Origin: Anaspis maculata
Taxonomy: Eukaryota; Arthropoda; Insecta; Coleoptera; Scraptiidae
Assembly: GCA_949128115.1 (NCBI GenBank)
Contig: OX421966.1
Span: forward strand, 36,287,042-36,351,041
Direction of reading: 5' to 3'
Length of the DNA stretch: 64,000 nt
Notes under the pieces: generated by a model
What the model saw: the letters and a program-made list of their open reading frames with translations, nothing else
What the model was told of the DNA's origin: nothing
Database searches by the model: none
Shown here: one piece after another, positions 1 to 56,713 of the stretch
How the letters are laid out: each line of letters opens with the position of its first letter
Numbering within the stretch: position 1 is the stretch's first letter
Position numbers and translations under genes: made by a program

Positions 1-354
1 TCTGGTGTTGTGGTGGTCGGGGAGCTTTGTTTCATAAAAATGCGAGGTGCCGCTATATGGCCCTAAGAGGCGCAATATTTATTTATATTCGCGTGTTTGT
101 TGTGTTTAACATTGCTCGACTCGGCTTGAGTATTCATGTGTACATCTACCATCGATGCTCTCTTGGCGACGGTGTTGCTTTACGTGGAATTCTGTTGATT
201 CCCTCGCATGCCTGATGCCTTGAAATATAGCATCTGCGGAATGCCTTTGATAGATGGCGCCGCTTGGAGGACTCACATATTAGGAGTCCTCTTGGGTGTA
301 TATTACCATGAGTTCTCTGACTGCCACGGCATCGGATGGTTGAGCTGATCACGC

Positions 355-402
355 CTGCGCACTGATGAGCCCCCAGTAGGGGCGAAACACGTGTCTGTGC
401 AG
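355..402 (+). ncRNA. Hammerhead ribozyme, type I, minimal stem III (copy 1)
   Basis: All core elements are present: CTGATGA at 362-368, stem II GCCCC (369-373) with GGGGC (379-383) around loop CAGTA, then GAA (384-386). Stem III is two base pairs, AC (387-388) with GT (393-394), closed by an ACGT tetraloop. The cleavage triplet is GTC, so cleavage is predicted after C395. Stem I is CTGCGCA (355-361) with TGTGCAG (396-402), seven pairs including one G-U. A two-bp stem III is typical of retroelement-associated hammerheads, which often act better as dimers. No cleavage was measured; the call rests on the fold. Confidence 0.9.
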
Positions 403-772
403 TTGTTCGGTTCGATCGTCTGGTGTTGTGGTGGTCGGGGAGCTTTGTTTCATAAAAATGCGAGGTGCCGCTATATGGCCCTAAGAGGCGCAATATTTAT
501 TTATATTCGCGTGTTTGTTGTGTTTAACATTGCTCGACTCGGCTTGAGTATTCATGTGTACATCTACCATCGATGCTCTCTTGGCGACGGTGTTGCTTTA
601 CGTGGAATTCTGTTGATTCCCTCGCATGCCTGATGCCTTGAAATATAGCATCTGCGGAATGCCTTTGATAGATGGCGCCGCTTGGAGGACTCACATATTA
701 GGAGTCCTCTTGGGTGTATATTACCATGAGTTCTCTGACTGCCACGGCATCGGATGGTTGAGCTGATCACGC

Positions 773-820
773 CTGCGCACTGATGAGCCCCCAGTAGGGG
801 CGAAACACGTGTCTGTGCAG
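773..820 (+). ncRNA. Hammerhead ribozyme (copy 2)
   Basis: Same sequence and fold as the copy at 355-402, displaced by exactly 418 bases. Predicted cleavage is after C813, so cleavage here and at copy 1 would free a 418-nt RNA (396-813). Confidence 0.9.
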
Positions 821-1190
821 TTGTTCGGTTCGATCGTCTGGTGTTGTGGTGGTCGGGGAGCTTTGTTTCATAAAAATGCGAGGTGCCGCTATATGGCCCT
901 AAGAGGCGCAATATTTATTTATATTCGCGTGTTTGTTGTGTTTAACATTGCTCTACTCGGCTTGAGTATTCATGTGTACATCTACCATCGATGCTCTCTT
1001 GGCGACGGTGTTGCTTTACGTGGAATTCTGTTGATTCCCTCGCATGCCTGATGCCTTGAAATATAGCATCTGCGGAATGCCTTTGATAGATGGCGCCGCT
1101 TGGAGGACTCACATATTAGGAGTCCTCTTGGGTGTATATTACCATGAGTTCTCTGACTGCCACGGCATCGGATGGTTGAGCTGATCACGC

Positions 1191-1238
1191 CTGCGCACTG
1201 ATGAGCCCCCAGTAGGGGCGAAACACGTGTCTGTGCAG
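1191..1238 (+). ncRNA. Hammerhead ribozyme (copy 3)
   Basis: Same sequence and fold, displaced by a further 418 bases, with cleavage predicted after C1231. It lies only 50 bases before the array is interrupted at 1288. Confidence 0.9.
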
Positions 1239-1287
1239 TTGTTCGGTTCGATCGTCTGGTGTTGTGGTGGTCGGGGAGCTTTGTTTC

Positions 1288-2526
1288 ACATTATAGTTCG
1301 ATGTATCATATCCCCTTGATACCATTTTGGCACAAAAAGTGTCCATCGTTGTTGAAGGGGAGTAGTGGGGGGGCGAAGCTCTGCAAGTGGTCCATTTTGT
1401 TTTTCTGGCCATGTAACACCGATCCCGACAAGTTTGGTATCTTTTCCGACTAAATTCAATCTCCTGAACTCGTATCCGATGTGTAAATTTGAATGAAAAC
1501 AAGTTTGAACAAGTTAACTTGGGAAAACTTGTTTTTTCTTTGACATTTCTGACGAATTTTTTTTTTTACTCTTGGAGGTGTTCATTTCCAGAAAATTTTC
1601 AGGGACCATTGAATTGAAGTGTGTTCTCCACATAAATCATCCACTCGATGTATAATTTTGTTCCTCGAGTTTAAAAAATCGATTTGAACTTGAGCCGGCA
1701 CGGCGCGTCGTCTACTACTGACCAGAACACTACAGCATGCACCTTTAAATGAAAACACCTCAAACTGTTGAAAAAATAACAACTCATCTTTGAAAATTGG
1801 AGGATCTGTGGAGAATTGAATTTCCTATAACATAAACAAAATCGCCATGAATCGCACTGCAGAGTTTTGAGTTATTCAAGTGGAGAGGTAACAGTTCATA
1901 GAGTATGAATCCTGTCAAAGTGTTATCGTCCTCCTCGAATAACTCAAAATTCTGCATTGTGATTCATGGCGATTTTGTTCATGTTATAGGGAATTCAGTT
2001 CTGCACAAGTCCTCCATATTTCAAAGGTGAGTTATTATTTCTTCAATAGTTTGAGGTGTTTCCATTTAAAGGTGCATGCTGTAAAGTTCTGGTCAGTAGT
2101 AGACGACGCGCCGTGCCGACTCAAGTTAAAATCGATTTTTTAAACTCGAGAAACAAAATTATGCATCGAGTGGATGATTTTTGTGGAAAATACACTTCAA
2201 TTTAATGGTCCCTGAAAACTTTCCCAAAATGAACGCCTCCAACAGTAAAACAAAAATTCGTCAAAATTGTCAAAGAAAAAACAAGTTTTCTCAAGTTAAC
2301 TGGTTCAAACTTGTTTTTATCCGAATTTACACATCGAATATGAGTTCAGGAGATTGAATTTAGTCGGAAAAGATACCAAACTTGTCGTGATCGGTTCTAC
2401 ATGGCCAAAAAAACAAAATGGACCACCTAGCAGAGCTTCGCCCCCCCACTACTCCCCTTCAACAATGATGGACAATTTTTGTGCCAAAATAGTATCAATG
2501 GAATATGATACGTCGAACTATAATGT
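1288..2526. mobile_element. 1.24-kb palindromic (foldback) element
   Basis: Termini ACATTATAGTTCGA and TCGAACTATAATGT are inverted, and the two arms (about 1288-1890 and 1935-2526) can be followed as imperfect inverted copies almost to the centre. The centre repeats the pair AGAGTTTTGAGTTATTC / GAATAACTCAAAATTCT. No coding sequence is visible; ORFs on either strand mirror each other. It begins exactly where the 418-bp hammerhead repeat is cut off, so it probably inserted into or recombined with the array. No convincing target duplication was found. A non-autonomous DNA transposon is the best guess. Confidence 0.75.
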
Positions 2527-2584
2527 ATTCGCATCCAATGGATTGACGGGTTCCATCCCCTCCATTTTTATCTGCAATTTTTTA

Positions 2585-2603
2585 CCCCCCCCCCCCCCCC
2601 CCC
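2585..2603 (+). repeat. Poly-C tract (19 C)
   Basis: Uninterrupted run of 19 cytosines just beyond the palindrome; G-quadruplex potential on the minus strand. Length may be unstable in reads. Confidence 0.9.
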
Positions 2604-2775
2604 TCCAATAATTCAAAACCCCCGGGTGCGATTTTTGGCGATTTTGGATATGTTGTAGAGCACTCAATTTTGAACAAAATATCAAATATTCAGGACGTCC
2701 ATATTTTTTCCGAGGTTGAAATCTATCTTTCTTGTACTATAAAGTAAACACCATTGTGTAGGGAACGAGATGAAA

Positions 2776-2905
2776 GTATATTATTCAACAAGCGGGTAAT
2801 GATTGCTTCTTACTCATGAGGATGCAGTTTGCCGACACGAGCCTTGGCGAGTGTCGTAAAGCATCCGAATGAGTAATAGCCATTACCCGCGAGTAAAATA
2901 CTATG
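2776..2905. repeat. Imperfect hairpin repeat with CGGGTAATG / CATTACCCG arms
   Basis: Stepwise inverted matches: CGGGTAATG with CATTACCCG, TACTCAT with ATGAGTA, GGATGC with GCATCC, CGACAC with GTGTCG. A small foldback or MITE relic; no target duplication identified. Confidence 0.6.
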
Positions 2906-3660
2906 CTTTATCCAGTTTAATTGAAAAATGCAGGCATGTATGCGCGTGATAATGCGTACATTATTCAATAGGATTGGATAAACAATTTTACAGTTTCTTT
3001 GCGGTTCTCCGGAAAATACAGATACCAGCTCAATTACCAACCGCACAACGACGACTGTAGACGACAAACTGTAGAAAGAATAAGACAATGATGGGTACTT
3101 TTCGCAACCGGTAACGTTGGTGACTCTAAATAAAAAGTTGAATATAAAGTACCTACCCCTCGACCTACCCTAACCTACATTTAGTTAATTGGAATGTGTG
3201 CTGAATGCAAGGACGCGTCGTGTGTTGCATAAGACGTAAAATTTAGACGATGGTGCCGACGACCCCATGGATGTTGGTGGTCATCAAAGATTCCTACCCT
3301 GCTTGTGTTGAAACACACAAGGATTCGACAAAATTTCTGCTATAGTTTAGTAGAAGAAAACCTCCACCGGCGTCGGTGTTGTGCCTTGGAAGCGGAAACA
3401 GGCCGATATTGAACAAATGTGCTCATAAAATTACCAGGCATATGTATGTACTGAGTTTCATTATGGACACAAGTACCTAATTGAAGTTGGGCCAAGACAA
3501 TTCGTCCTAATTTAATCTCAAACAGAACCACATTCCAATCAACTTGTGGGAATGGCGGAAAAGCGAAAATTTTCTTGGTTAGGAAGGTGCTTGATATTGC
3601 TTAAATCTTTTTTTTAATAATAAAGCAGTTAGTATCATCAAGCTATACTGCACTACTCTC
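2906..3660. other. No gene seen
   Basis: Ordinary AT-rich sequence. Short ORFs of 60-90 codons on the minus strand show no recognisable domain or codon bias. Confidence 0.5.
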
Positions 3661-3663
3661 TGA

Positions 3664-3898
3664 TGCCCGTATTCATAGTCGTTGTCAAGTGCACCTTGTT
3701 CAAGTATCACCTTTTATCGAGCTGTAACTCAAGTACGATTTCTGTTTCATGGACATATTTTTGGCTATTCCCGTGAAATAGTATTCCTTGAGGAAAGCCA
3801 ATGTTACGTCTATGAAACAGAATTCGTACTTGAGTTACAGCTTGATTTAAAGTGGTACTTGAACAAGGTGCACTTGACAACGACTATGAATACGGGCA
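3664..3898. mobile_element. Palindromic MITE, TGA target duplication
   Basis: Arms of about 85 bp start TGCCCGTATTCATAGTCG and end with the reverse complement CTATGAATACGGGCA. The element is flanked by TGA on both sides (3661-3663, 3899-3901). A 3-bp TNA duplication is typical of PIF/Harbinger-type elements. The 110-codon ORF across it is a by-product of the palindrome. Confidence 0.75.
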
Positions 3899-4095
3899 TG
3901 AATGGAGTCAACTCTCTAACTACCTTATTCTGCCAAGCAAAATTAAACACACTGCTCGTAATGTGTGTGAACATACTAAGAAAGGCTGAGGTGTTCTTTT
4001 CTTCGGGAAATTAGAATTGAGTGAAAATTTAAATTAAGTAGAGTAATGCGTAGAATTTGATTCTCGGGTGTTTCTCTTATTTATTTTTATAAGTG

Positions 4096-4138
4096 ATTTA
4101 TCCACTGATAATGTAATTATCATTATCAGTGGATAAAT
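4096..4138. repeat. Perfect 18-bp inverted repeat hairpin
   Basis: ATTTATCCACTGATAATG (4096-4113) and its exact reverse complement (4121-4138) are separated by 7 bases. A second, overlapping inverted pair GTAATTATCA / TGATAATTAC uses the loop and right flank, so two alternative hairpins compete. Confidence 0.8.
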
Positions 4139-4477
4139 GATAATTACATGAATAAGGGTAATTTCAAATGGGCTTATGAAGAGAATGTGTATGTATTTCA
4201 AATTTTCAAAAATTTATATTTTTTTCACAATTTTCAATTTTTTCTCGAAGAACACCGTTTCTCTGACCACCCAGATTTATCAATACTAATATGTTTTCAT
4301 ATATTTCAATTTTTTCTCGAAAAACACCGTTATTTTCTGACCAAGCCTGCTTGTGGCTGTTGTTATGCTTGAGCATCTAACAAGCGAGCGGTACACCGAG
4401 TTATCGCAAAAAAATCAAGAATCCCATCAAAAACCAGTCTTTCAAATTTTGATTGCTTCCAAAATATAAAAAATGAT

Positions 4478-4575
4478 TCGGCGAGTCGCAGGAATCGAAC
4501 TCGAACCTGCTGGACACACGCCACGCGCAGGTAAGGTCGGAGGTGGCGTCTCTCACCATCAAGCTATCAGGGTAT
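4478..4575 (-). repeat. tRNA-like SINE head (degenerate)
   Basis: Read on the minus strand it has an A-box-like TAGCTTGATGG and a B-box-like GAGTTCGATTCC in the correct order and spacing for a pol III promoter. It does not fold as a clean tRNA. Body and tail limits are unclear. Confidence 0.45.
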
Positions 4576-4822
4576 TTTCGTCAGCCGGCCAAAACCGTCA
4601 TTAATAAAAGACACGAACAATTTCTTTTATCCTTTGAAGAGCAATAGTGGCCCAAGGCCCCGACTACCAGCCGGGAAAGGTACGTTCTGGTCATCAGCAA
4701 GTGTATGGGACTTGATTTATTAAGAACGTCTCCTTGTGAGAAATATGGAAATCCAATAATAAAATTAGTGATATTTCAACCGTCATTTTGACATTTTAGT
4801 ATGTTAACTTGATTCAAAGTAG

Positions 4823-5348
4823 TGTTACGAGCGGCGATCTCGTACATATTGGTAAACACTCGATGTTTCTGGATCTTTCCATCATTAGATCGCAGTGTAG
4901 AAGTCTGGAGCGATCTGGTGCATTCCAGAGCGTTTGTGTATGTGAAACTGAAGGTAGACTTCAATGCTCGATCAAGAAAGATCTGTCCATTTTGGCGGAG
5001 GCGCCGCTCGTAGCCCAGCAGAATTATACGGGTAAAGTGTACGATTATTCAGGAATGATCTAGAAACCGCATATGCCAGACCACCATGGAATTTGCTGGA
5101 AGTAGACAGAAAGCTCGAGAACATTTTTCGGAGGCCTTATATAAATAAGGCATCAGCCGGCAGCTCGCGGCAGTATTGAATTGGAATGCGAGCGGATAGC
5201 GAGCGATAACAAGCGAAGTACCTGCGATATAATTTCAAGTGGATAATTGTTGGCGCTATTTATTGTAGTAGTACGCAGAAATAAACAGTGTGTGTTTTAA
5301 ATCGATCGTCTCAATTATATTCGAACCCGTACGCGAGATATCGTAACA
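4823..5348 (+). mobile_element. Solo LTR, probably Ty3/Gypsy type
   Basis: 526 bp bounded by TGTTACGA and TCGTAACA, an 8-bp perfect terminal inversion of TG...CA type. Inside are a TATA box (TTATATAAATAAGG near 5138) and an AATAAA signal near 5280, in the order expected of an LTR. Flanking bases GTAG (4819-4822) and GTAT (5349-5352) are a 4-bp duplication with one mismatch. No internal region or second LTR is adjacent, so a full element has probably collapsed by LTR-LTR recombination. The same TGTTACGA start occurs in the decayed Gypsy element near 19 kb. Confidence 0.7.
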
Positions 5349-20811: not shown

Positions 20812-20861
20812 CTCTGCGCTGACGAGTCCCCTAATAAGGGACGAAACACCTGTATGTGGGG
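20812..20861 (+). ncRNA. Hammerhead ribozyme motif, second family
   Basis: CTGACGA (20819-20825), stem II GTCCC (20826-20830) with GGGAC (20838-20842), then GAA (20843-20845). Stem III is AC (20846-20847) with GT (20852-20853) around ACCT, giving cleavage triplet GTA. Stem I pairs CTCTGCG (20812-20818) with TGTGGGG (20855-20861): seven pairs, four of them G-U wobbles, so weaker than the array copies. It is a single copy, not tandem. The sequence differs from the 418-bp family, so this is a separate retrozyme-like or retroelement lineage, perhaps decaying. Confidence 0.65.
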
Positions 20862-20887
20862 TACCTAATCTCTGGAGAAAATTTACA

Positions 20888-29149: not shown

Positions 29150-29503
29150 TCACCATTTAAATGAACCTCCTATGCTGATAGCAGGTTTACCTTTATCGTG
29201 TCCACTCACGACTTGAGATACACCTGCGTGAATTTCGTGATTTTCGCCTTTTTGTCCGACATCAACTGAAACCTTTACGTTTCCATCCTGGTCACGTTCA
29301 AGATTCGGCTCCACCACTACATCTCTTTTGAAGCGAGCCACTCCATCAGCATAGTATCCGTCAAAATTGGCAGCCCTTTTATTGGGGCGAAGTCGAGCAG
29401 CTTCCTCATGAACAACGTTTTTATTTTCAACAAGAAACTGTGGAACAGCCGAAATCAAGACCACCGCTGAAGCAGCAACCAGGAGGATCGTGAGAAATTG
29501 CAT
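29150..29503 (-). CDS. Coleoptericin-like secreted antimicrobial peptide precursor
   Basis: 117-residue preproprotein. Residues 1-19 (MQFLTILLVAASAVVLISA) are a signal peptide. Two basic processing sites follow, RPNKR and RFKR, the second just before a 57-residue mature region starting DVVVEPNLER. That region has the landmarks of the coleoptericin branch of glycine-rich insect antimicrobial peptides: a PxLxRDxxGN opening, QKGxxHxxxAG in the middle and KxKPxxSIGGSFKW at the end. It would be secreted into haemolymph and act on bacteria, mainly Gram-negative in this family. The ATG at 29503 is preferred over 29566: it places the signal sequence first and directly follows a splice-acceptor-like tract (TTTTTTCCGCAG), suggesting a 5'-UTR intron. 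A GGGGAAATTA motif at 29745-29754 resembles a Rel/NF-kB site only weakly. The family call is from memory of its consensus. Confidence 0.8.
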   Translation of the reverse strand: MQFLTILLVAASAVVLISAVPQFLVENKNVVHEEAARLRPNKRAANFDGYYADGVARFKRDVVVEPNLERDQDGNVKVSVDVGQKGENHEIHAGVSQVVSGHDKGKPAISIGGSFKW

Positions 29504-29647
29504 CTGCGGAAAAAAGCGTTGGAAGTTGAAAGTTAAAAAATTGTAACTTCGTATAATGATTATCATTCAATAATAATGAATGTTTTTAAATCTACTGTCA
29601 TTGTGCAGTTTGGGACTCAGTAGGGATACCTATCTGAAATTTGCTTA

Positions 29648-30827: not shown

Positions 30828-31156
30828 TTTAGACTTAGTATTATTCGTTGGAGACTTTGACTACTTCGACTCGGGGATAAGCCACAGAACTAGAGCAAAC
30901 GCATATACAATTGGGGGAAGGTCCCTTCGATAGTTTGCTAGATTCATAAACGGAACTAGGTACTGGACTTTTTCAAAGCAATGACATAAAACTTGGAGCA
31001 TATTTGTTCCTGAAAGTGAACAATCGTCAAGCCAAAATAGATAAATATTCAATCATCTAATCATCAAGATAAAAAACCAACTTGATAAGTTAAATCGCTT
31101 GGAAGATGTTGGAGATTCACGCAGAAACAGATAAACGACAGACGAATGACATTTTA
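30828..31156. other. No gene seen
   Basis: Nothing supported. Confidence 0.45.
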
Positions 31157-33135
31157 TACAGGGTGTCCCGTGTTTAATCGCAAAGATTATGCCAGTCGAT
31201 AGAACATCGGAAAAGAATGAGACATGCATATAAAAATTTTGTTCAAAAACCCGTAATAACGGAGATACAGCTCTTCAAAGTTGGAAAACAAATACAGTTC
31301 TTTTCACCTAACTTTCATACTGTTCAACCGATTTGCGTCCAATTTCCTACACATATTCACTAACCATATGCCTATAAACCTCGGTCAACGCATTTGGTGA
31401 GAACAGCCCCATGGCGTAGATAGGGGTGGTTGCGCCTCTTTTATCATCCCTAATTTTTTCCCTACTGCAAATTCTCCAAAATCTGTACCATTTTCGAGTT
31501 GTTCAATTAATTTTCAGCTAAAAGTTGCTCTTGCAAAATTTCGATAGGAGGCTTACTTTTCGAGATAATTCAGTTTGAAGATTTCTGATCAATCTTGCAA
31601 CAAAATTTGCTTCAAATTTGCATTGCTACATCATTGGAGATAATCAGTTCTAAATTCACACAAGTGATGTTGAGATCATCAAGTATCATAACGTAAGAAC
31701 GATTTTGATCTGAACAATCCAGTGGCGTAGAATCAGGGGGTTTTCTATCTCACATCCACTTATCTGCTACACCACTGAATTTTTTTGAAATTATTATTTT
31801 TTTGAATTTGTCTTTCGATTCAGAAAGAAAAGTTGCTCTTGTGAAATTTTGATTGAAGACCTCGTTTTCGAGTTATTCAAATGTCAAAGTTTGAGATCAA
31901 TAAAAAAAACCGTAAAATTCGATTCTCTGCTATTTAGAAGCAGATAGGTACATGACTGGAGAACAAAAATAATTATTATTGTAACATACATTGACTGACA
32001 TGCAATTTTGTCTTCCATCCCGGCTTCTTTACCGCTAATGAATTTTTTTTCCTAGTTCAACTTTCTTCAAAATTGATGAACTGTAAAATCAAGGTAATTG
32101 TAGGTATGAACTCACACAACGTGAGTAAAATCAAAAGAAAGTGGTACATTAATCAACATGAATAATTGAAAACAAGATTGAATCAAGGGTTTGCTGTTTT
32201 CCTTGATATGCCAGCCATTTTTCCGACTCAGAACTTTAAAGTTTGAATAACTCGAAAACGAAGCCTCCAATCAAAGTTTAACGGGAGCAACTTTTTTTTT
32301 GGATCAAACGACAAATTCAAAAAAAATATTGATTTTGAAAAATATCCAGTGGTGTAGCAGATATGTGAATGTAAGTAAGGAAGCCCCCTAATTCCACGCC
32401 ACTGGATTGTTTTGATCAAAATCGATCTTACGTTTATGATACTTGATGATCTCAACATCACTTGTGTGAATTTGGAACTGATTATAGGTGCGCTCAGTCA
32501 GCTTATTTAGCCGCAAGTTTTAATTTTAGTCGTAAGCGCTGCATCGCTCATTGGCTGGTCTGAGGAGGCTGGTTCATAAGAGCCAATGGGCGTTTTTGCG
32601 CTTGCGACTAAAATTAAAGCTTGCGGCTAAATAAGCTGACTGAACGCAGCTTATCTCCAATAATGTAGCAATGCAAATTTTTAGAAACTAAAATTATGAG
32701 AAGTTGCAAGATTTACTAGGAATCTTCAAACTAAATTATCTCAAAAAGTATGCCTCCTATCGAAATTTTGCAGGAGCAACTTTTCGCCCAAGATTGGATG
32801 AACAACTCGAGAATGGTACTGATTTTGAAAAATTTGTTGTGGGGAAAAAAATAAGGATGATTGGAGGGGCGCAACCACCCCTTTCTACGCTATGGGGCTG
32901 TTCTGACCAAATGTGTTATTCGAGGTTCATAGACATTTGTTCAGTGAATACGTGTAAGAAATTTGACGCGAATCGGTTGACCAGAATAAAAGATAGGTGA
33001 AAAGAACTGTATTTGTTTTTCAACTTTGATGAGCTGTGTGTGTTTTTGAACGAAATTTTCATATGCATATCTCATTCTTTTCTGATGCTCTATCGACTGG
33101 CAAAATCTTTGCGATTAAACACGGGACACCCTGTA
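31157..33135. mobile_element. Large TACAGGGTG foldback element (2.0 kb)
   Basis: Ends TACAGGGTGTCCCGTGTTTA and its inverse. The arms (about 31157-31830 and 32290-33135) are imperfect inverted copies along their whole length, with shared landmarks such as AGTTGCTCTTGCAAAATTTC versus its inverse and CCAGTGGCGTAGAATCAGGG versus its inverse. No transposase is present. TA flanks each end. The right arm is interrupted by a 165-bp element, which makes the two arms unequal. Confidence 0.8.
32486..32650. mobile_element. MITE nested in the right arm, TTAT duplication
   Basis: Inverted arms carry CAGTCAGCTTATTTAGCCGC and the reverse complement. The uninterrupted left arm supplies the pre-insertion site (reading GATTATCTCC on this strand), so the insertion point and the TTAT duplication (32482-32485, 32651-32654) are visible directly. 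Confidence 0.8.
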
Positions 33136-33195
33136 TTTTTGTCCTATATCGGAATGACTACTCAGAAGAAGCTAGTTTTCTTTGAAGTTTGCATC

Positions 33196-36248: not shown

Positions 36249-38417
36249 AATGGCCGAAGACGGAACGAGACCTGGAGTTGTGCTCGTCAGCAGAGCGCGC
36301 GGGGAATCCATCAAGGAAGCGATCACGAGGACGTCGATGATGTCGAGTCTGTGCATAGCTGCGAGGATGGCGCGAGGCGTGACGGAGCACGAGGTGGAGC
36401 CGGTGGTAATTTCGGTGGATCGGAGAGCAATCCGCAGATGGACATGATGATGCGAATGATGTACACAATGGAAATGAATCGAGCAGCTAGCGAAAAGAAC
36501 GTGTTGGGGTTGATTGAAGCTATTGCTGCAAGAAGGAACGAAGAACCACAGGCAAGGTACCATGTTATGCCTGATCTCAGCAAGTCAATTGGTACTTTCA
36601 ATGGCGAGTTTGGCCAAGTGGCTGGGACCTGGATCGACAAGCTGAAGAATACGGCAATTTTGCACTCGTGGCTCGACGAATTTACGATGCAGACTGCAGA
36701 TATGAATTTGACCGGACCTGCAATTGATTGGTATCAAGCGAAGCGGTCAGAAATGAGAACGTGGCAGCAATTTGAGCAGGCCTTTCGGAAAACGTTCTGT
36801 GTGAAACAGAGCTTGACCGAATCATGGCAGAGGATGACCAAGCGAGTTCAGGAAGTAGGGGAAAGCGCTGCGAATTATTTCCTTGCCAAGAACAAAATGT
36901 GTAAAGTTCTGAAACTTAGTTTTGATGAAGTTAAAGAACAGATTTTGCGAGGGTTGCGTGACCGAGCATTGGTCCAAAGCTTGTTGGGCAAAGCTCATAG
37001 AGATGAGGACGAGTTACTTCACGACATTGTATCCTTTTCGAGTATTTTAGGGTCTGACGAGAAAGCGAAGAAAAATGTGCCGACCACGCAAATGAAAAGC
37101 ATTGCCAATACGAAGAATGCACAGAAACCTTCACGAGACACGTCGTCTGTGAAATGTTGGAATTGTTTGGCGAAAGGGCACTATTCCTCTGCATGTCAAA
37201 AACCTAAAGCTCGAAAATGTTATAGATGTGGAAGCGACACTCATGTGTTGAAAGATTGTCCAGTCAAGGTGGAAGAAAAAGGCGTGAAGAAAGAAGTCAA
37301 CGTAATTACGTCAGCTCCTATTGAGAAGTATTTGCGAAAAGTCTCTGTAAATTTGGTCGAACTTCAAGCAATGGTTGATTGCGGTTCAGCAGTATGTACA
37401 GTGAGAGAGTCTATCGCAAAGAAAAGTAAATGGGTTGTCGAGGAAAAAGCGATGGAACTTTGTGGTTTTGGAAATGCGAAGGTCAAGTGTGAGAAGGTTA
37501 CCTATGCGAACGTTAAGGTGGATGGAGTCGAGTTGGAAGATGTTCCTACCTGGATTGTACCAGACGAAGTTCAATCTGTTGACGCGATAATTGGAAGATC
37601 TTTTACAGAAAATAGTCAGGTGGTATATTTCAAGTTCGACGACAATTTATTTTTTGTAGATAAGGAAAGTTTTGAACAAGAATTTCCTGGAATCGATTCG
37701 AGATGCAAATCACTGAAGGTGCGATCTGCTGAGACGGCAAAGGTGCCAGCAGAGTCCACGATGTTTATTGCCAGCATGGTTGATGGGCAAGAAGTCACTA
37801 CTCCAGTGATGAATTACAGTATGGTTGCCAAGACTGTAAAGGAGGGTGATGTTGTGGCCAGAGTCAATTCTGTGTGTGAAGGCAATATGGATGATTGTGT
37901 TCCGGAACGAATAACGGAGGAGATGTTGAACGTTTCCATGGAATTGTCGCCGAAGGAGCGTAACGATCTATTGACTTTGTGTAACGCATATCGGTCGTGT
38001 TCTGCTTTCAGTCTATCCGAGTTGGGCTGTGCCAGAAGCTATGAGATGACGATACGGGACACTAATATTCCGGTAAGGTCGAAGCCTTATAAAGCCACGC
38101 TGAAGGAGCGCGAGACAATTGCCAACATTGTCAAAGAGTGGAAAGCAAATGGAATTGTCACTGAAACGAAAAGCGAGTATGCCAGCCCTGTGATATTAGT
38201 CAGGAAGAAAACTAGTGAGCCCAGACTAGTAGTTGACTATAGAAGGTTGAACAAACAAACGGCCAAGGTACCTTATCCCATACCCACTTTGGACGAGCAC
38301 TTCGAGCGTTTGAATGGCTGTAAAATGTTTACAACATTAGATTTGGCTCATGGGTACCTGCAGATACCATTATCTGAGGGTAGTAAACCGAAAACTGGTT
38401 TCATAACACCAGATTAA
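36249..38417 (+). pseudogene. Gag, protease and N-terminal RT of the Gypsy element
   Basis: One long frame is open from 36249 to a TAA at 38415. Counted from 36351: a retrotransposon Gag region at about 75-230, zinc knuckles C-x2-C-x4-H-x4-C at 269 and 290, a protease motif VDCGSA with the aspartate at 343 (DCG, not the usual DTG/DSG) and a flap-side IIGRSF, then RT with LVVDYRRLN near 629 and TLDLAHGY. The start is unclear. The frame has no ATG until 36438, while a likely start ATG at 36250 is in another frame, overlapping the TGA that closes this one upstream, so a frame change near the start is probable. The TAA falls inside RT just before the conserved FGL block. Confidence 0.85.
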
Positions 38418-38669
38418 ACAGGACAGTTCGAAAGAACAACTTTTGGTCTTGTAAATTCACCGTATGAATTTTGTAGGGTGATACAATCTGTTCTAGGACC
38501 TTTGAGACATAAAGTTTGTACTTCTTATATCGATGACTTGCTCATTGGAGCTTCTACATGGCCGGAGATGATGTCCAGGTTGAAAGATGTTTTTCAAGCT
38601 TTGCAAGATGGAGGCTTGACGTTAAAACTTAAGAAGTGTGTATTAGTGTATTTGAACTTCCTGAAGTAG
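38418..38669 (+). pseudogene. RT catalytic segment after the premature stop
   Basis: Same frame as the gag-RT segment. It contains TTFGLVNSP and the RT catalytic box YIDDLL, so the stop at 38415 splits RT between its palm motifs. It ends at a TAG at 38667; the homologous continuation (EVEFLGY) is in another frame, indicating an indel around 38635-38665. Confidence 0.85.
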
Positions 38670-40306
38670 AGTTCTTGGGCTATGTCATAAATGAAAACGG
38701 CATGAAACCTGGTCCCCAGAAGGTTTCAGCTGTGAAGGAGTTCGATGTTCCAAAGAATGTTCATGATGTCAGGAGGTTTTTGGGCCTTACGGGCTATTTC
38801 AGGCGTTTTGTGAAAAATTATGCCACACGGGCAAGACCCTTGAGCAATCTATTGAAAAAAGAAAGTGCATTCAGATGGGAACATGAGCAAGAGGCGAGTT
38901 TTCAAGATTTGAAGAGAACGTTGTGTGAAGAACCGGTACAAAAATTGTACGACCCGAAAGCAAATAGAACCGAATTGCATACTGATGCTTCGAGTACGGG
39001 ATTGGCTGGAGTTTTGCTTCAGGAGGCAGATGATGGCAAGCTACACCCAGTGTATTATGTGTCGAAAAAAACGACGGAAGTGGAAGCCAAGTATCACTCG
39101 ACAAAGCTGGAGCTCATGGCAGTGGTTTGGGCTATAGAGCGGTTGAGAAGCTTGCTACTTGGAATTAAGTTTGTCGTGGTGACAGATTGCCAAGCGATTG
39201 TCTTTCTGAATGCAGGAAAAACGAAGAACGCGCAGCTGACACGATGGTTTGACTTGTTGCAGGAATACGATTTGGAAATGAAACATCGAAAGGGAGTTGA
39301 AATGTCGCACGTTGATGCTTTGTCGCGAAGTCCAGTAGGAAAAGCATGCGACACTTTGGACGAAATTCACGAGAAGCTGGAAGTGTTGAATTTGGTTGAT
39401 GAAGATGACTATGTGACGATGATTCAGTATGGAGATCCGCAGATACGAGAGATTATCGAAATTTTCAAAAAAGAAGAAAACGACAGAAGCGCTAACGAAA
39501 GGCAGAGAATTTCAGGGTATGATTTTGATCGATCTCGAGTTTGGAAGATAGAAGTTGAGAATGGTAAACGAAGGAAACTTTATGTACTCCCGAAGAGCGC
39601 GAGAAAAAGTATCGTAATCAAATGTCATGATTTGCATGGACATTTTGGGGTTGATCGAACTGTTGCGAAAATAAGGGAAAGGTATTGGTTTTCAGGAATG
39701 AGGAATTATGTAAAACGTCATATTCAAGCTTGCATCGAATGCCTAATGTGCAAAATTCCAGGAGGTAAGCGACCGGGAGAATTGCATCCATTGGAATGTC
39801 CGAGAAGACCTTTTGAAAGAATCCATATGGACCACGTTGGTCCTTTCCAGAAAACGCAGTTTGAGAACATGTACATAATGGTTGTGATCTGTGCGTTGAC
39901 AAAATATGTTACCTTGTATCCAGTTGAGACGACAAAGGCTCAAGAGGTGATCGAGAAAACGCACTCATTTGTGAATAGGTACGGCGTGCCGAAGGTGATA
40001 ATCACAGACAGAGGAACGGGTTTTACATCCCAGGATTTTGAATCATACTGTCAACGATTGGGAACGAAGCATGTTTTGATTTCATCAAGATGGCCTCAAG
40101 CAAACGGTCAAGTAGAGCGTGTAATGAAGACTTTGGTACCGACAATAATGACATGTATTGATGCCGAGGACGAATGGGACGTGAAGATTCCTGAAGTTGA
40201 GAGAAATTTGAATACGGTTATCAATAAAACGACTGGAAAAACCCCGTTTCAAGTGCTGCACGGATATCTGCCAGTTTTCAAAGATGGAATTGTGGTTGAC
40301 CATTGA
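38636..40306 (+). pseudogene. RT end, RNase H and integrase of the Gypsy element
   Basis: 556 codons counted from 38636 (a GTG, not a real start). The RT connection has FLGLTGYFRRF near 48-58. RNase H has acidic residues D117, E159, D184 and D227. The integrase zinc-binding part has H331/H336 and C366/C369, and the catalytic core has D399, D458 and E494, with exactly 35 residues between the last two (DD35E). The domain ends at a TGA that lies inside the integrase C-terminal region. The catalytic residues are intact even though the frame is broken on both sides. Confidence 0.9.
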
Positions 40307-40649
40307 CCGAGATGAAGAATGGGTGCCACCAGAAGAAATTCAAGATGAAGTCCGAAATAACATAAAGCGTGAGCAAGTAAAAATGAAGAAAAGATATGAT
40401 GCAAAGCATTATCAGGGCTTGAAGTATGATGTGGGCGATGTAGTTGTGATGAGAAACTATGTTGTAGGCGGCACCGGCCTACCCACAAAATTGCAGTTGA
40501 AGTATCGAGGTCCTTTGGTAGTTGTGGAAGTTTTGCCTAGTGACACATACCGGGTCGCTAGTGTTGGTGATGAAGGTCGCCGATTCATGACAACAGCAAA
40601 TGTGTCGCAGCTGAAGTTGTACATTGTACAAGCCCCACGAAGACGATGA
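40284..40649 (+). pseudogene. Integrase C-terminal GPY/F module
   Basis: Overlaps the preceding segment in another frame. It carries KKRYDAKHY, VGDVVVMRN and KYRGPLVVVEVLPSDTYRV, the GPY/F-type module of Gypsy integrases. It stops at 40647-40649 while an acidic continuation is open in yet another frame, so a further indel near 40630 is likely. Confidence 0.8.
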
Positions 40650-42660: not shown

Positions 42661-42939
42661 ATACTAATTCTGTGGCTTGAATGGAAAAAAGGACCAAGAA
42701 ACGCAAACAAGTGAGTATGCCTTCACGTGCGTGAGTCTCAGTAGCGCATTTTCTCAAAGAGGCATATTGTGAACGTAAAGAAATTTGGTTGAAGGAGAAA
42801 CACCATTCCTTGCCCACTTTCTTCATTTGAAACTCATTGTGATATTTTGTTATCAGAATGGGGTACTTGCCAACTAAATAGATTTGAATGAAAATTCTTT
42901 CACTCATCAATATTTTTTTGTTTGAGGGCGGGAGCTGGG

Positions 42940-44340
42940 AGCGGCGACTAATCAAAAGTGGCCTATCTCTTCCCATTTTCAGTCAGCTATCTATATAGCG
43001 GAACAATTAGATCGCCATGTCTTCAAGGTTATGTTTTACATTTATCTCTTACTTTGAGGGCGGCGTGTGGGAGCGGCAGAGTTTGGCAAAGATATTTTTC
43101 CACAGTTTGAGTTGGGAGTTTCTGAATGTTTGAGGTAACATTAAAATGTAAATCAGTGGAAATTATTGGAAGTTGCACTTTTTTTCTTTTGGGGGTGGAA
43201 GTTGGAGGCGGCGTCATATCAAAAGTAGCCTATTCTTTCCCATTTTTAGTAAGCTATCTATATAGCGAAAGAATTAGATCGTTATGTCTTCGAGTTTATG
43301 TTTTTCATTCATCTCTCACTTTGATGGCAGCGTATGGGGGCGGCAGCATTCGGCAAAGTAACTGTTGCACAGTTTGAGTTGGAAGTTACTAAATGTAAGG
43401 GAAATATGACAATTAGTGAAAATTGTGAAAGTTGCATTTTTTGCTTGGAGGCGGCAGCTGGAGGCGGCGGCTAATTAAAGTGGCCTATCTTTTTCCAATT
43501 TCAGTCAGCTATCAATATAGTGAAAGAATTAGATCGCTATGTCTTCAGGTTCATGTTTTTCATTTATCTCTTACTTTGGGGGCGGCGTGTGGGAGCGGCA
43601 GCGTTCGGCTGAGCAAATGTTGCACAATTTGAGTTGGCAGTTCCTAAATGTTAAAGGGAACATCTTAATCAGTAACATTTGTGAAAGTTGCACTTTTTAT
43701 CGTTTGGGGGCGGAATCTGGGGGCAGCGACTAACCAAAAGTAGCCTATCCTTTCCCATTTTTAGTCAGCTATTTATATACCGATAGAATCAGATCGCTAT
43801 GTCTTCGGGTTTATGTTTTTCATCCATCTCTCACTTTGATGGCAGCGTATGGGGGCGGCAGCATTCGGCAAAGTAACTGTTGCACAGTTTGAGTTGGAAG
43901 TTACTAAATGTAAGGGAAATATGCCAATCAGTGAAAATTGTGAAAGTTGCATTTTTTTACTTGGAGGCGGCAGCTGGAGGCGGCGGCTAATTAAAAGTGG
44001 CCTATCTTTTTCCAATTTCAGTCAGCTATTAATATAGTGAAAGAATTAGATCGTTATGTCTTCAGGTTCATGTTTTTCATTTATCTTTTACTTTGGGGGC
44101 GGCGTGTGGGAGCGGCAGCGTTCGGCTGAGCAAATGTTGCACAATTTGAGTTGGCAGTTCCTAAATGTTGAAGGGAACATCTCAATCAGTAACATTTGTG
44201 AAAGTTGCACTTTTTATCGTTTGGGGGCGGAATCTGGGGGCGGCGACTAACCAAAAGTAGCCTATCCTTTCCCATTTTTAGTCAGCTATTTATATACCGA
44301 AAGAATCAGATCGCTATGTCTTCGGGTTCATGTTTTTCAT
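42940..44340 (+). repeat. G-rich tandem array, ~260-bp units with 517-bp higher-order period
   Basis: The marker GCC-TAT-(T/C)-CTTTCC...CAGCTAT recurs at 42961, 43228, 43483, 43743, 44000 and 44260, giving unit lengths of 255-267 bp. Units alternate between two types (one with GGGGGCGGCGTGTGGGAGCGG, one with GATGGCAGCGTATGGGGGCGG). The pair starting at 43483 is repeated almost exactly at 44000, a 517-bp higher-order unit. Recurrent open frames of about 65 codons are by-products. No gene. Confidence 0.8.
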
Positions 44341-46203
44341 TTTAAAGTGCTTGGGGGCGGTTTTTAGCAGTTTTTTCATGTTGGCGGCGCATATTGAAGA
44401 CGGAATGTTTGTTGGCTTACGTTTATAAGTGGCAACTATGTATTATTCAAAAAATGAGAACACTAGAGCATCAGGTCTGGTAGAAAGTGCAATATTATGT
44501 TATTTCAAGTTTATCGGGGGCGGTTTTCTCTATGTTGGCGGCGCAATATGGACATCCAATATAGCCTAGCCCTCCTTTGGGAGTGGCAGCTATGTAACAG
44601 CGAAAAAATTAGAAAGCTAGGTCGTCTAGTTTGGGAGGAGTTCGATGAACGGACGGACGACCGGACGGACGGACGGACAAAGCGGTTGCAATAGCGATTT
44701 TCATCAAGATGGAAAATGCGCTAAAAAACTGGTTGTGAGAATGGCAGTTGAAATTATTTTTTCTCAAGCATTTTCTTATTTTGGCGCATCCTTCAGAAAC
44801 TTCAATATTCACTTTTCAAAAGCTATACGACTACCAAGTTACTAGCTACCACATTGGCCTTTCGCAGGCTTGATTTTTCGAACGTTTGGATTTGGCCAAG
44901 CAACGAATTCGAATGGTTGCAAAGGCAATAGTTCAAGAGTGCATGTTTCAAAACGTTGTTCGAGTTGTTTGTAATACGACTTGAAATTCGAACGATCTCG
45001 AGAATCGGGCCCCTGGCCCTGACAGCGATCTCAAGAATCGGGCCCCTGACAGTCCGCTGGTTATCCGACTGACAGTTCTAGGCCGTTACAGTGAACTTGT
45101 TTTTAACATGATCCGGTATTCGGTTGTAGTGAAACTACTAACTAGGCAGAAAACCTAGCCACCTACTCTGCTGTCGTCCTGTTTTTGTGCTGAATACATT
45201 TTTTGTTTTGTCTACTTTTTAAACCTTCTCTCTACTCTGTTGATTACCATAGCATAAATTATTATTATTATTATTTGAGCTGTACAAGTGCCATAATAAT
45301 AGGTAGTAGGTGGTACATACTTCACCTGAATGCGACATCACAAATCCAAAAACAATGATTTTCCCTCGCACACGACATGCCCGAACTCATGATTAAATGA
45401 TTGATTAGAAGTACACGCTTCATCAATCAGCGCCTGTCGGGGCTACAATCAAGACATATTGCTCTCGAATGATTTTCGAGGATTAAATTCGCGTTTAATA
45501 CCCTGCAGGATTTTTCCATCACATCTCATCGGCCTTAGTTTTGTTCAGCATTGTAGGTTATACCTACCATTATAATCGTCGACGATTTTTCGATTCGAAC
45601 TGAGGGAATTTGACAATGGCAGACAAGGTCTTCAGCCCGTGTAACAAAAATTTCGATTCATTTCGATTTTGTTACCTCAATTCTTCAATTTTCAAATCAT
45701 TATAGAATCGTTTTTTTTTATCGTAGGACGGTTCCAAAAAACATAATTGTACTCGCATAAAAATCTCTATATCCATATCCAGGGCTGTTCCATTTGGAAA
45801 TCAGAAGTTGATTTCTTAAGAGCGAGCAACTCTATAATCCAAAATGCAAGGAATAGCAAAAGTTTTCCTAGATATCCCATGAAAATCTCAAAACAATTCA
45901 ATAAGAAAAATGTCTGGACTTTCCGAAAAACACACGGTAGCTGATTGTATAGCTCTAAGTAAGTACGACATATCAACTGAGTTGAAACATATATGGAGAA
46001 ATCCACCACTGTCAGACTTCCCGACCCGAAACTAATACCGGTTTAGGTCCAGACTTTTTCGGAAATGTTCTCGTTAGACGCTTTACACTTCGAAGTGCTT
46101 GCCTATAATTTCCTCGTTTAGCCTGACTCTCTCCTCTCTCCTACCTCCTACCTCCTCTTCCGCGAATCTTCATTTTATAATTCACTCTACAGTCTACACG
46201 CCA
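44341..46203. other. No gene; short GGAC and CGATCTC repeats
   Basis: G-rich satellite-like sequence continues to about 44640, then a (GGAC)n run at 44648-44679. Near 44990-45055 a 23-bp motif (CGATCTC-R-AGAATCGGG...) occurs twice. The rest is plain. Confidence 0.5.
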
Positions 46204-48285
46204 TACAGGGTGATTCATGAGTGACCTCACATAGGCTAATGGCAGATACAGGACTTCGAGGCAAGTCATGATCTCCAGAAGAAATTGTGTTTTCTCCATT
46301 TGTTACGAAGATACAGTGTGTTTCGTGTGAAACTTTGGTCAGCGATATTTCTGAAACAGCTAAAGATATTTTGTTGAAATTTACCAATAATATTTCTCTG
46401 TGGAAACTTATCCAGGAGCCATACCGAGTAAGTCAAAATTCAAGGCCAGGTTAGAAAAAATGTGTTCCTTTAGTTATTTGATTGAAAAGTACATTTTTAG
46501 ACCGCTTTTCAGAGAAACTCTTTTATCGAATTTGAAAAGCTAAGGAAAAATGCTTCAAGAATCACTCTTGAATTTAGATGGCACACCTAAACCGTTTCGA
46601 CAATAAAATTAAAAGTAAAATTTGTGGGTAAGTTTCCATTTTTGACCGGACATAATAAGACTCATTGTTTGATTGAATTCATTCAAATTCATTCTTTAGC
46701 TTGTCACTGTGGAATAGAAGGGCTTGGTTGGAAGAAAAATTCTATAGCCGAAAATTTTTTTACGACCAAATCGAGTCTCATTTTGTTTCACTCTCGTATT
46801 TGTCATTAAAAAAATGGTCGGCTCCGGAATTTTTCTCTCAACCAAGCCCTTCTATCTAACAGAGGCAAAGCAAAAAATGAATTTGAATGAATTCAATCAA
46901 ACAATAGTCTTTTTCGAGCGAGTAACCGTTCATGACCGGTTACACACTTGGTTATAGAATTGGACGTTTGAGCGAGGATTGGTTATAAGCGGTAAAGGAA
47001 GTGCCGCCATTTTGATATCATCACCGGTTATACATTTCACAACCTGGTCATGAGGCTGGTTATTGTTATGGTGGGAGAACAAATTGTGGCGGCAACAGAT
47101 TTGAATTTGAAACAAGCAGCGGTCCAGAATTTCTAAACGTGAAACGTACCTAACCCAACCTCAAAAACTTGACAACTCGACTTGGCGACGAGAAGAATCG
47201 AAAACGATGGACTCGTCTGCGATGGACGCACAAGAACATCGGGTGATCCAGATGTCCGATGGCCGCCTGATGGTGGCTTAATCCTGAAAGTACTTGTCAT
47301 ACCTCCTATTTATATAGTAGAAATATGAATAGTTGATTTTCAATTCAATTCAATACAACTATTTATTGTTCCTTCGGTATTACACCATGAACAAGAAAAC
47401 AAACAGGATTTCATCGAAATTGTATGTGCGATGTGATCACGATACACGTGTGATCCACAAAATTCGTAATCAAGGCCCTGATTGGGGCCCACCCGGGTGA
47501 CTTCGGAAACGAGATGTTCATCGATTCAAGTGACTGGATTGGCTGGATGACTGAATTTTTCACCTTCAAAGCTACCCTAGATTACGAATGGTTCAAGTAC
47601 ACGGTATGTAACAGAGACAAGTACAAGTACGTAACTATTTGAAGCCATCAGTCCCTCTTTTCCCGCCAAATGCTGATAACCAAAGTTATAACCGCAACGT
47701 TTTAGCGAGAAATGTTAGATGTCAAAAAAATTACAGTATCTGTCAATCTAATGTCAACCGCTTATAACCAACCGGTTACAAAGAGTTACTCGCTCGAAAA
47801 AGACTAATGAGTCGATTATGTCCGGTTGAAAATGGCAGCTTACCCAGAAATTTTACTTTCAATTTCATTACCGAAACGGTTCAGGTGTGCCACCTAAATT
47901 TAAGAGTGATTCTTGAAACATTTTTCCTTAGTTTTCCGAATCCGATAGAAGCTTTTTAGAGAAGCGGTCAAAAAATGTACTTTTTTATCAAATAACAAAA
48001 GGGCACCTTTTTTATAGCCCGGCCCTGGATTTTGACTTGACCGCTACGGATTCTGAATAAGTTCCAACACAGAAATAGCACTGGTAAATTTCAACAAAGT
48101 ATCTCAAGTCGTTTCAGAAATATCGCTTATCGAAGTTTCCGATGAAGTTTTATACGAAACACATAAAACACCCTGTATCTTCGTAACCAATGGAGAAAAC
48201 AAAATTTCTTCTGTGGATCCTGACTCGCCTTGAAGACCTCGATCTCCCATTAGCCTATGTAAGGTCACTCATGAATCACCCTGTA
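46204..48285. mobile_element. Large TACAGGGTG foldback element (2.1 kb)
   Basis: Ends TACAGGGTGATTCATGAGTG and its inverse CACTCATGAATCACCCTGTA, flanked by TA. The arms match inward through CCTAAACCGTTTC / GAAACGGTTCAGG, a GTCCGG motif, then GAGCGAGTAAC and its inverse to about 47000 and 47700. The centre is unique, with no transposase. A 240-bp element interrupts the left arm. Confidence 0.8.
46665..46904. mobile_element. Palindromic element nested in the left arm
   Basis: Arms TTGTTTGATTGAATTCATTC and the inverse, plus inner AGAAGGGCTTGGTTG and its inverse. The uninterrupted right arm reads GACTCATTAGTC on the reverse strand, so this segment is an insertion. The exact target duplication is ambiguous. 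Confidence 0.75.
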
Positions 48286-48287
48286 TA

Positions 48288-49236
48288 GTGCGGGCGCTAA
48301 GAGCCAAAATCGCGATGAACCTTGCAAATGGTGATGAAAGCATGAAATTCGGTACACATACTCAAAATGAGCCCCTCTTTCAGATAAGAGGTGGAGCCAC
48401 GCCAAATTTTCATCGGAAGGGGGCTCGGGGGGCTCCTGAAAGTTCAAGGTGCTACCTTGGCTAGGACTCCCACTAAATCGCTTATCACGTCATTTTAATA
48501 ATTAAAGAGGAAACTTACGAATATATCGTGAACATTGACGGCGTTTATCGCCTTGTCCCAGGAATTTTTCATTATAAAAAAAATAAGTTCTTCGGCAGAT
48601 CACAAAAATTGGTTTTATTTTATTTTCACATGCAAAGACATACAGTGTTTCAGGACTTATTCCACGTTCAATCGCACGCGGTACTTCCAAAGAACGGTTC
48701 AGGGTATGTTTTGCTGGGAGGAATTCAATTCAGTAATTTCGATTCAGAACATTGAAAAAATTTTGTTTGAACTTAGTGTTGAAAATAGCTTACTCTTTGG
48801 AATGCCCCTCTTCAAGAATATACACCATGAAAATTTTGACTCCACAAACGAATTCAGAGGATACGAATTTGTGGGTCATCAACGTGTTGCACATCTCCAT
48901 ATTAATTCCTTGTGGGTGAAAATAAAATAAAACCAATTTTTGTGATCTGCCGAAGAACTTTTTTTTTTCATAATGAAAAATTCCCGGGACAAGGCGATGA
49001 ACGCAATTTTTACGATATTATCATAAGTTTCCTCTTTAATTATTAAAACGACGTGATAAGCGATTTAGTGGGAGTCCTAGCACCTTGAACTTTTAGGAAA
49101 CCCCCGAGCCCCCTTCCGATGAAAATTCGGCGTGGCTCCATCTCTTATCTGAAAGAGGGGCTCATTCTGAGCATGTGTACCGAATTTCATGCTTTTATCA
49201 CCATTTGCAAGGTTCATTCACCTAGTGCCCCCACAC
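48288..49236. mobile_element. Foldback element abutting the previous one
   Basis: Arms of about 330 bp: CGATGAACCTTGCAAATGG versus CCATTTGCAAGGTTCAT, CTGAAAGAGGGGCTCATT-type landmarks, AAATCGCTTATCACGTC versus GACGTGATAAGCGATTT, and TTCTTCGGCAGATCACA versus its inverse. The centre (about 48630-48920) is unique. It starts within 3 bp of the preceding foldback. ORFs across it are mirror by-products. Confidence 0.75.
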
Positions 49237-55196: not shown

Positions 55197-55267
55197 GGCT
55201 TCAATTTTCAATTCTAGTAGTCTCCTTCTCTAACGGCGACTCGGGTCAATTGTCCTCTCGGTAGAAC

Positions 55268-56028
55268 ATAGTACTGTGGCGCTTTTCTTGAGGAAACAGG
55301 ACGAAATTAAACTTTTATTTTTATTATAGTCGTACAATGCAATGTTTCGCCCTAATTTAGGGCTTCATCAGGCTAAAAATGAACATACAGATCAACAATC
55401 ACAAACAAGATGTGGAAGGGCTTTACTTACTAAAATACAAAATTGCAAAGTCAGAGGCATAATATGGAGATAGAGACGAGACCAATGCACATAATTTGGC
55501 CGAGGTGTACTAGCCGTGTGGTCGTTTTTTATTATAAAAAGCAAAATAAGATACGAGTTTTTACTCTCTTTCTCCTCACACAATGTCCCTTCCAACATAT
55601 AACAATTGAAAACAATCAATACATCTGATTCCAAGACGTCGATGGGGTTGGTTGTTAATTGTTCCTGTCTTGAAATCAGATGTATTGATTTTTTTAATTG
55701 TTATATGTTGGAAGGGACAATTATGTGAGGAGAGAGAGTAAAAACTCGTATCTTTTCTCGCTTTTTATAATAAAAAACGACCACACGGCTAGTACACCTC
55801 GGTCAAATTATGTGCATTGGTCTCGTCTCTATCTCCATATTATGCCTCTGACTTTGCAATTTTGTATTTTGGTAAGCCCTTCCACATCTTGTTTGTGATT
55901 GTTAATCTGTATGTTCATTTCTAGCCTGATGAAGCCCCAAATTAGGGCGAAACGTTGTATTATACGACTATAATAAAAAAAAGTTCAATTTCGTCCTGTT
56001 TCCTCAAGAAAAGCGCCACAATACTATA
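55268..56028. mobile_element. Foldback with hammerhead-like motif in each arm
   Basis: Inverted arms of about 365 bp (55268-55640, 55665-56028) meet at a ~25-bp centre. Each arm carries CTGATGA-A-GCCC...GGGC-GAAAC (minus strand 55344-55372, plus strand 55926-55953), the core and stem II of a hammerhead with one extra A before stem II. Flanks do not pair as stem I, so activity is doubtful. Such motifs occur in Penelope-like elements, but no reverse transcriptase is present here. Arms also share GGCGCTTTTCTTGAGGAAAC and its inverse. Confidence 0.7.
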
Positions 56029-56713
56029 CATAAAGAAGGACAAAGAAACCGATCAAAATTAATCTCGGTAGAACGCATCACAGAATGTCACGCCAATTAT
56101 GACATTTCGCTGCAACTTTGTTATTTATCTCAGCTCTCTGCTCTTTTTGAAGGTCACAATTGCGCTAAGACTCGATCGATCTGAGAAGAATCACCGATTT
56201 TTTATTCGACAGGCCGGGTACGCCCGGAGGGCGGTTACTTCCGGCCCCACCACCGATCTTTGATTCGACAACAACTTGGGACACGAAAAAGTTGTGTACA
56301 TAGACCTCGACAGGTACGCCCGAAGGGAGATCCTACCACCGATTTTTGATTCAACAACAACTTGGGATTCATTCGGTAGGAAACTGTGAATTTTCTTCAT
56401 TCCTTACAGGAAATTCAGGATGTTTGGAGACCCCAGACACGGAAAAACTTGTAACTCAGTAACTGTACGTCCGAATCCTGATTGGTTGGTGCGAGGGTTG
56501 GTGTCACAAAATTGATCATAAATTTTTGCATGTTATCATACCAATTCCATATTCATCGAACCTCGAATTTTCCGGGAAAAAAATACAGGCAAGAAACTGT
56601 TTTCCACGTTTGACGTTTGAGCCGTGGAATGTACAGGGTCGATGTGGAAACATGAAACCTTCACCAAAAAAAATAGAGTATTTTTTCCGCATCCGCCAAC
56701 GCTAAACACGACC
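56029..56713. other. No gene; short direct repeats
   Basis: ACCACCGATCTTTGATTCGA / ACCACCGATTTTTGATTCAA recur within 56245-56350. A block with GAAACTGTGAATTTTCTTC at 56380 is repeated near 57209. Confidence 0.5.

Follow-up and report, generated by a model that had tools for sequence, protein, structure and literature searches.

Animal retrozymes are short tandem repeats with type I hammerhead ribozymes that yield circular RNA, and according to PMC7229834 Penelope-like elements are strong candidate helpers, the template being a properly primed circular RNA. The return of retrozyme circles to DNA, and the enzyme responsible for it, have so far had the standing of a proposal. In the part of PMC4918200 that describes them, the repeats of Nematostella carry 15-bp duplications.

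The array analysed here, which begins a 64,000-nucleotide stretch of Anaspis maculata DNA (contig OX421966.1, positions 36,287,042 to 36,351,041; hereafter the window), is most probably a non-autonomous non-LTR animal retrozyme. Retrozymes of this kind are already described in PMC4918200 and PMC7229834, in line with the original prediction, which had noted that retrozymes are known in animals. As in the description of non-LTR animal retrozymes in PMC7229834, each unit has a type I hammerhead and a highly paired RNA, the tandem repeats fall within 150-450 bp with a GC content below 50% (here 418 bp and 49.3%), the target duplications are longer than 4 bp (here 11-15 bp in 35 of 39 loci), and Penelope-like elements occur in the same genome. 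The unit of 418 nt is slightly above the 170-400 nt stated there for retrozyme RNAs. Unlike the retrozymes of that paper's main text, which makes no mention of an inverted or head-to-head arrangement, 29 of the 39 loci studied here are head-to-head and have two fixed start sites. Within a limited literature search, no description of inverted arrays or of two start sites was found in the portions covered of PMC7229834, PMC4918200, PMC7761336, PMC11722881 and PMC6155905.

A tandem hammerhead array at the start of the window

Tandem Repeats Finder (TRF) places a repeat with a period of 418, 3.1 copies and a 99% match at 1-1288, which bears out the predicted tandem 418-bp array. At window 1-1287 (plus strand) the array comprises three complete 418-bp units plus part of another; units 1 and 2 are identical and unit 3 differs by one base, so the three were rightly called almost identical. 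The predicted limits of 1 to 1288 stood in part: base 1 is not the beginning of the array, which is clipped there by the window and continues outside, while its end is indeed at 1287 or 1288, the last retrozyme base being ambiguous because A1288 is common to the unit and to the target duplication at 1288-1299. Unit positions are counted from window position 396 (c1), which directly follows the predicted cut.

A complete type I hammerhead had been predicted in every full unit, and all three were recovered both by eye and with a descriptor, on the plus strand at 355-402, 773-820 and 1191-1238, with predicted cuts after C395, C813 and C1231, respectively. In unit 1 the core consists of CTGATGA (362-368) and GAAA (384-387), stem II is GCCCC/GGGGC with loop CAGTA, stem III is an A-U and a C-G pair with loop ACGT, stem I is CTGCGCA/TGTGCAG (7 bp including one G-U), and the cleavage triplet is GTC, with C395 as its last base. 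The Rfam model Hammerhead_1 gives 25.6 bits at each of the three (E 0.064), which is below its curated threshold of 34 bits. The full descriptor matched at four places on the plus strand of the window and at none on the minus strand, against one match in 60 shuffles searched on both strands. No minus-strand ribozyme of the retrozyme was found with the descriptor and Rfam on both window strands, and the sole match of a hammerhead core search on the minus strand lies at 55345, in a foldback described below.

The longest frame in the repeat region, 116 aa from stop to stop, is on the minus strand, and the unit has no frame long enough for a protein with reverse transcriptase (RT) and GIY-YIG domains; we therefore rejected the idea that the unit is itself a Penelope-like element. 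Folded as a circle, the plus strand of the unit reaches −164.7 kcal/mol versus −128.4 kcal/mol in 60 shuffles (z = −6.2), with 2 of 25 control stretches from the window giving a still lower z, and the minus strand gives z = −1.65 (60 shuffles).

Two positions in the unit, which we call A and B, recur as outer ends of insertions. Site A (...AGCTTTGTTTCAT, 440-453, plus strand) lies at unit position 57-58, with a primed-end mode of 58, and is the true right end of the window array at 1287/1288. Site B (...GTTTGTTGTGTTTA, 513-527, plus strand) lies at unit position 130-132, with a mode of 131. In the predicted fold, the unpairedness of A is at the 99.5th percentile and that of B at the 76th, which is not unusual.

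Outer ends and arms of the insertions

The genome search for further arrays proposed with the original prediction was run with one unit against 758 Mb in 50 contigs; of 1544 candidates, the best-scoring 40 contained 222 matches. Among the matches listed we grouped 39 places, which were then fetched and unit-mapped; because they come from the best-scoring candidates, these loci are skewed to young, close copies. Twenty-nine of the 39 mapped loci are head-to-head, the minus arm preceding the plus arm. One of them is L060, whose plus arm is the window array and whose minus arm lies outside the window; unit mapping places the two arms at 1599-2105 (minus) and 2110-4830 (plus) in locus coordinates.

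The outer ends that can be explained by the start of a cDNA number 68, and with bins defined after inspection of the data, 32 of them fall at c55-65 (A), 34 at c121-139 (B) and 2 elsewhere. The two-armed loci (n = 29) comprise 15 with A on the left and B on the right, 12 with B on the left and A on the right, and 2 with an odd end; none of the 29 is A/A or B/B. In the one-armed loci (n = 10), the single end is A in 4 and B in 6. The inner junctions behave differently from these fixed outer ends, as their 58 coordinates, taken from BLAST pieces, reveal no departure from uniformity (KS p = 0.27). Filler lengths at the inner junctions are unreliable, because the apparent filler of L032, L059 and L063 is unit sequence at the border of a piece. 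Arms are longer than one unit in 58 of 69 cases (two of these by 2 bases only) and reach 12.4 units, the longest measuring 5176 bp. In L048, about 750 bp of foreign sequence (2733-3480) separates two minus-strand stretches of a long retrozyme array, and is perhaps a nested insertion.

Target duplications and overhang matches

Of the 39 loci, 35 lie between direct target duplications of 11-15 bp; the duplications are at least 10 bp in 36 loci and exactly 12 bp in 21, and in a control with mispaired flanks a score of at least 11 was reached in 0.2% of 2000 trials. The loci L044 (8), L045 (5) and L065 (4) are without a clear duplication. No pair of 200-bp left flanks from the 39 loci matches at E 1e-10, so the loci look like separate insertions. 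For the window array, the right copy of a 12-bp duplication, ACATTATAGTTC, is at 1288-1299 (plus strand), and the left copy is outside the window, in L060. The host of this insertion is a palindromic repeat of more than 1 kb (window 1300-2577), with arms about 88% alike, and its other arm provides a natural empty site, with a single copy of ACATTATAGTTC at 2515-2526 on the minus strand.

The duplicated flank adjoins the insert at either side, which implies a cut with 3' overhangs about 12 nt long. We compared the overhangs with the RNA copy adjoining each start site in 26 of the 27 loci with one A and one B end, leaving out L045, which has no clear duplication. The summed match is 46 at B versus 22 in shuffled data, and 31 at A versus 11, with neither value reached in any of 5000 shuffles; of the 26 loci, 4 at B and 6 at A had matches that could not be placed, and these contribute zero to the sums. 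The way duplications are measured could itself inflate microhomology, and the control for this, restricted to the 16 loci with duplications of at most 12 bp, gave 25 versus 11.1 at B (0 of 5000 shuffles) and 21 versus 9.6 at A (7 of 5000).

Agreement between the two arms

To compare the arms of each locus we used 11 polymorphic unit positions, with gaps excluded. The minus and plus arms have the same allele in 250 of 251 cells, whereas arms shuffled between loci agree with a mean of 0.71 and a maximum of 0.85 (2000 shuffles). Mixed alleles occur in only 4 of the 360 locus-by-site cells. Copies differ from the majority of their own locus by 0.13%, which indicates that the insertions are young; this low divergence and the dispersal of the loci support the recent amplification that had been suggested. 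As judged from these alignments, the uniformity and length of the arms are most simply accounted for by several turns round one circular RNA, and gene conversion between arms could later raise their agreement.

Of the 147 copies that cover the whole hammerhead stretch, 134 have it without any change. The mean minor frequency is 0.0012 in the hammerhead stretch and 0.0037 in the B stretch, as compared with 0.0068 for the whole unit, while the stretch at site A (c45-65) is more variable, at 0.037.

Paired ends in a Penelope-like family and in a third family

A genome search for GIY-YIG domains gave 29 matches, with 150 of 378 candidates scored, and one of these matches, L070, was read. It contains a frame of 848 aa from stop to stop, with a GIY-YIG domain at 26.7 bits (cut-off 22.6) and an RVT_1 match at 23.7 bits (E 4.3e-5), the latter below the Pfam cut-off of 29.6. 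It is well established that this pair of RT and GIY-YIG domains marks a Penelope-like element; such elements also have a hammerhead motif in their pseudo-LTR. The L070 insertion is head-to-head, both arms exceed one period of 2828 nt, and the outer ends fall at nucleotides 112 and 162 of the repeated end. The target duplication, read by eye, is 13 bp with one mismatch, and the hammerhead motif is degenerate.

A genome search with the repeated end of L070 returned 44 matches, of which 36 end at 149-162, 4 at 107-112, and 4 reach the end of the query. Each of the 4 short-ended matches faces a long-ended copy, so that with L070 itself two different ends are present in 5 of 5 classable pairs, a count made among the matches listed, where the partners of most other long-ended copies are absent. 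Seven further loci of the family fit this pattern (C7:54574467, C2:81677252, C4:2392538, C4:3502371, C5:92946875, C7:50020828 and C6:9661115), one arm ending at 150-152 and the other at 2938-2940; the latter arms are counted as short-ended as far as seen, because the query ends there. A divergent locus, C5:4961381-4965211 (89-91% identity), may be a counterexample to paired ends, since both of its arms stop at 2932 and the long end is unseen. With the whole element as query, our reading of 71 matches gives at least 15 head-to-head pairs. The retrozyme and L070 have no sequence similarity (best E 3.5), and a link by sequence between them was rejected on this ground.

A third family is represented within the window by a head-to-head foldback at 55268-56062, whose outer ends are 35 nt apart and which is flanked by a 12-bp target duplication, TCTCGGTAGAAC, with copies at 55256-55267 and 56063-56074 (plus strand). 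Each arm has a hammerhead-like core, at 55345-55371 in the minus arm, with an extra A in the core and no stem I seen by eye, and at 55926-55952 in the plus arm. From these cores and the architecture we take the family as putatively of the Penelope type, no protein having been seen. The best 40 genome matches of a 183-base end query all reach 178-183, an outcome of the design, 183 being the last base of the query. Another 5 partners have their ends at 141-155, in each case opposite a long-ended copy. Including the window foldback, the two ends differ in 6 of 6 pairs classed among the matches listed, a list that is incomplete, since the foldback's own minus arm is missing from it.

With the final A of GAAA as the reference point, the A and B ends of the retrozyme are 65 and 139 nt away; the corresponding values are about 68 and 109 nt for the L070 family and 75 and 110 nt for the third family.

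Discussion

We consider it likely, reading the process back from its genomic products, that a retrozyme circle is copied from A and B by a Penelope-like enzyme and that the cDNAs are then joined. Array transcripts would self-cleave at the hammerhead, releasing a 418-nt RNA that would be circularised. A Penelope-like RT, together with its GIY-YIG nuclease, would cut both strands of the target, leaving 12-nt 3' overhangs, and the two overhangs would prime at different sites, A and B, of a single circle. The RT may travel round the template several times, producing tandem copies, and the two cDNAs would be joined end to end at a random position. The suggestion in the original prediction that circular RNA is copied back into DNA fits the dispersed loci, their target duplications and the single template indicated for both arms. 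The inverted, two-ended form of the insertion and its likeness to Penelope-like elements were not visible to that prediction.

The hammerhead could instead be a passenger in ordinary satellite DNA, spread by unequal exchange or by excised DNA circles. The units are tandem and near-identical, and newts and cave crickets have satellites with hammerheads, according to the passages on them in PMC2837043 and PMC7229834. This reading is nonetheless hardly credible, and we rejected it on the target duplications, found in 35 of 39 loci at unrelated sites, and on the fixed outer ends; the inverted arms and the existence of an empty site also speak against it. It is similarly very improbable that the arrays derive, as DNA copies, from an infectious circular RNA of the viroid-like or delta-like kind. 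Such agents replicate from RNA to RNA, and they often have ribozymes on both strands or a delta-like protein. The rod-like fold and the length of 418 nt recall them, but no hammerhead was found on the minus strand, whose fold is ordinary, the numerous young insertions bear the signature of a retroelement, and a search of IMG/VR for the exact hammerhead pattern found 0 stretches.

The same twin-primed insertion might also use a linear template, either a multimer or monomers between which the RT jumps. A uniform source array would give uniform multimers, and the 4 mixed cells of 360 could be read in this way; yet a multimer with intact hammerheads, as in the 134 exact copies, would be expected to cut itself, and arms of up to 12.4 units with the same sequence on both sides come most simply from one circle, which makes a linear template unlikely. 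The helper, in turn, could be another non-LTR element (LINE) rather than a Penelope-like one. In LINE-1 twin priming, both target ends prime on one RNA and its 5' part is inverted, much as proposed here, and the retrozyme is without sequence similarity to L070. The second priming site of LINE-1 varies, whereas the start sites of the retrozyme are fixed and differ in 27 of 27 classed loci. The one Penelope-like family compared and the third family match the retrozyme in duplication length, in paired fixed ends and, roughly, in the distance to the hammerhead motif, so that a LINE helper is also a minor prospect.

The probable helper, a Penelope-like enzyme, is linked to the retrozyme through common architecture, given the lack of sequence similarity. 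Both are head-to-head, with paired start sites and copying past one unit, and the duplications of about 12-13 bp in Penelope-like elements are near those of the retrozyme. They differ in that Penelope-like elements encode protein, and the hammerhead is degenerate in L070 but full in the retrozyme, which has no such protein. More tentatively, and with slightly less than even confidence, we suggest a Penelope-type mode of paired-primer insertion, in which one complex would hold a circular RNA and two start sites, roughly spaced downstream of the hammerhead, would each take a 12-nt overhang. Retrozymes would parasitise exactly that mode, and the hammerhead would have two roles, in circle formation and in marking the start sites.

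In 1997 Evgen'ev and others reportedly described Penelope with terminal repeats that are either direct or inverse, so inverted Penelope elements as such are probably no novelty. What may be new are the paired fixed ends, the rule of one template per locus and the match with the retrozyme. The paired fixed ends, the common duplication length and the one-template rule provide genomic evidence for the proposal of a Penelope helper. They also give an exact prediction for biochemistry, namely that copying starts at unit positions 57-58 and 131 on the circle, and the paired-end signature can be sought in mussels, corals and salamanders.

Other features of the window

The fourth place matched by the hammerhead descriptor is an isolated type I hammerhead at 20812-20864 (plus strand), with CTGACGA, stem II GTCCC/GGGAC, a GTA site and a stem I containing several G-U pairs; Rfam gives it 16.1 bits (cut-off 34). 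It is perhaps a relic of a different retrozyme family, and this isolated hammerhead at 20819 suggests that other hammerhead repeats are, or were formerly, present in the genome. A second tandem array at 42913-44342 has a period of 260, 5.5 copies and a 79% match, with repeated motifs resembling GGGGGCGGC; the descriptor finds no hammerhead in it. Further large inverted repeats, 80-90% alike, are present at 31156-33136, 46203-48286, 48315-49217 and 58850-60106.

The window also contains LTR retrotransposon-like frames at 36249-40649, where gag, aspartyl protease, RT, RNase H and integrase are distributed across two long frames, which are those covered by the domain scan, and a third, shorter frame is also present. 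A coleoptericin-like antimicrobial peptide gene, which points to a beetle as the source, lies at 29150-29566 on the minus strand (PF06286, E 1.5e-5, 25.6 bits, cut-off 25).
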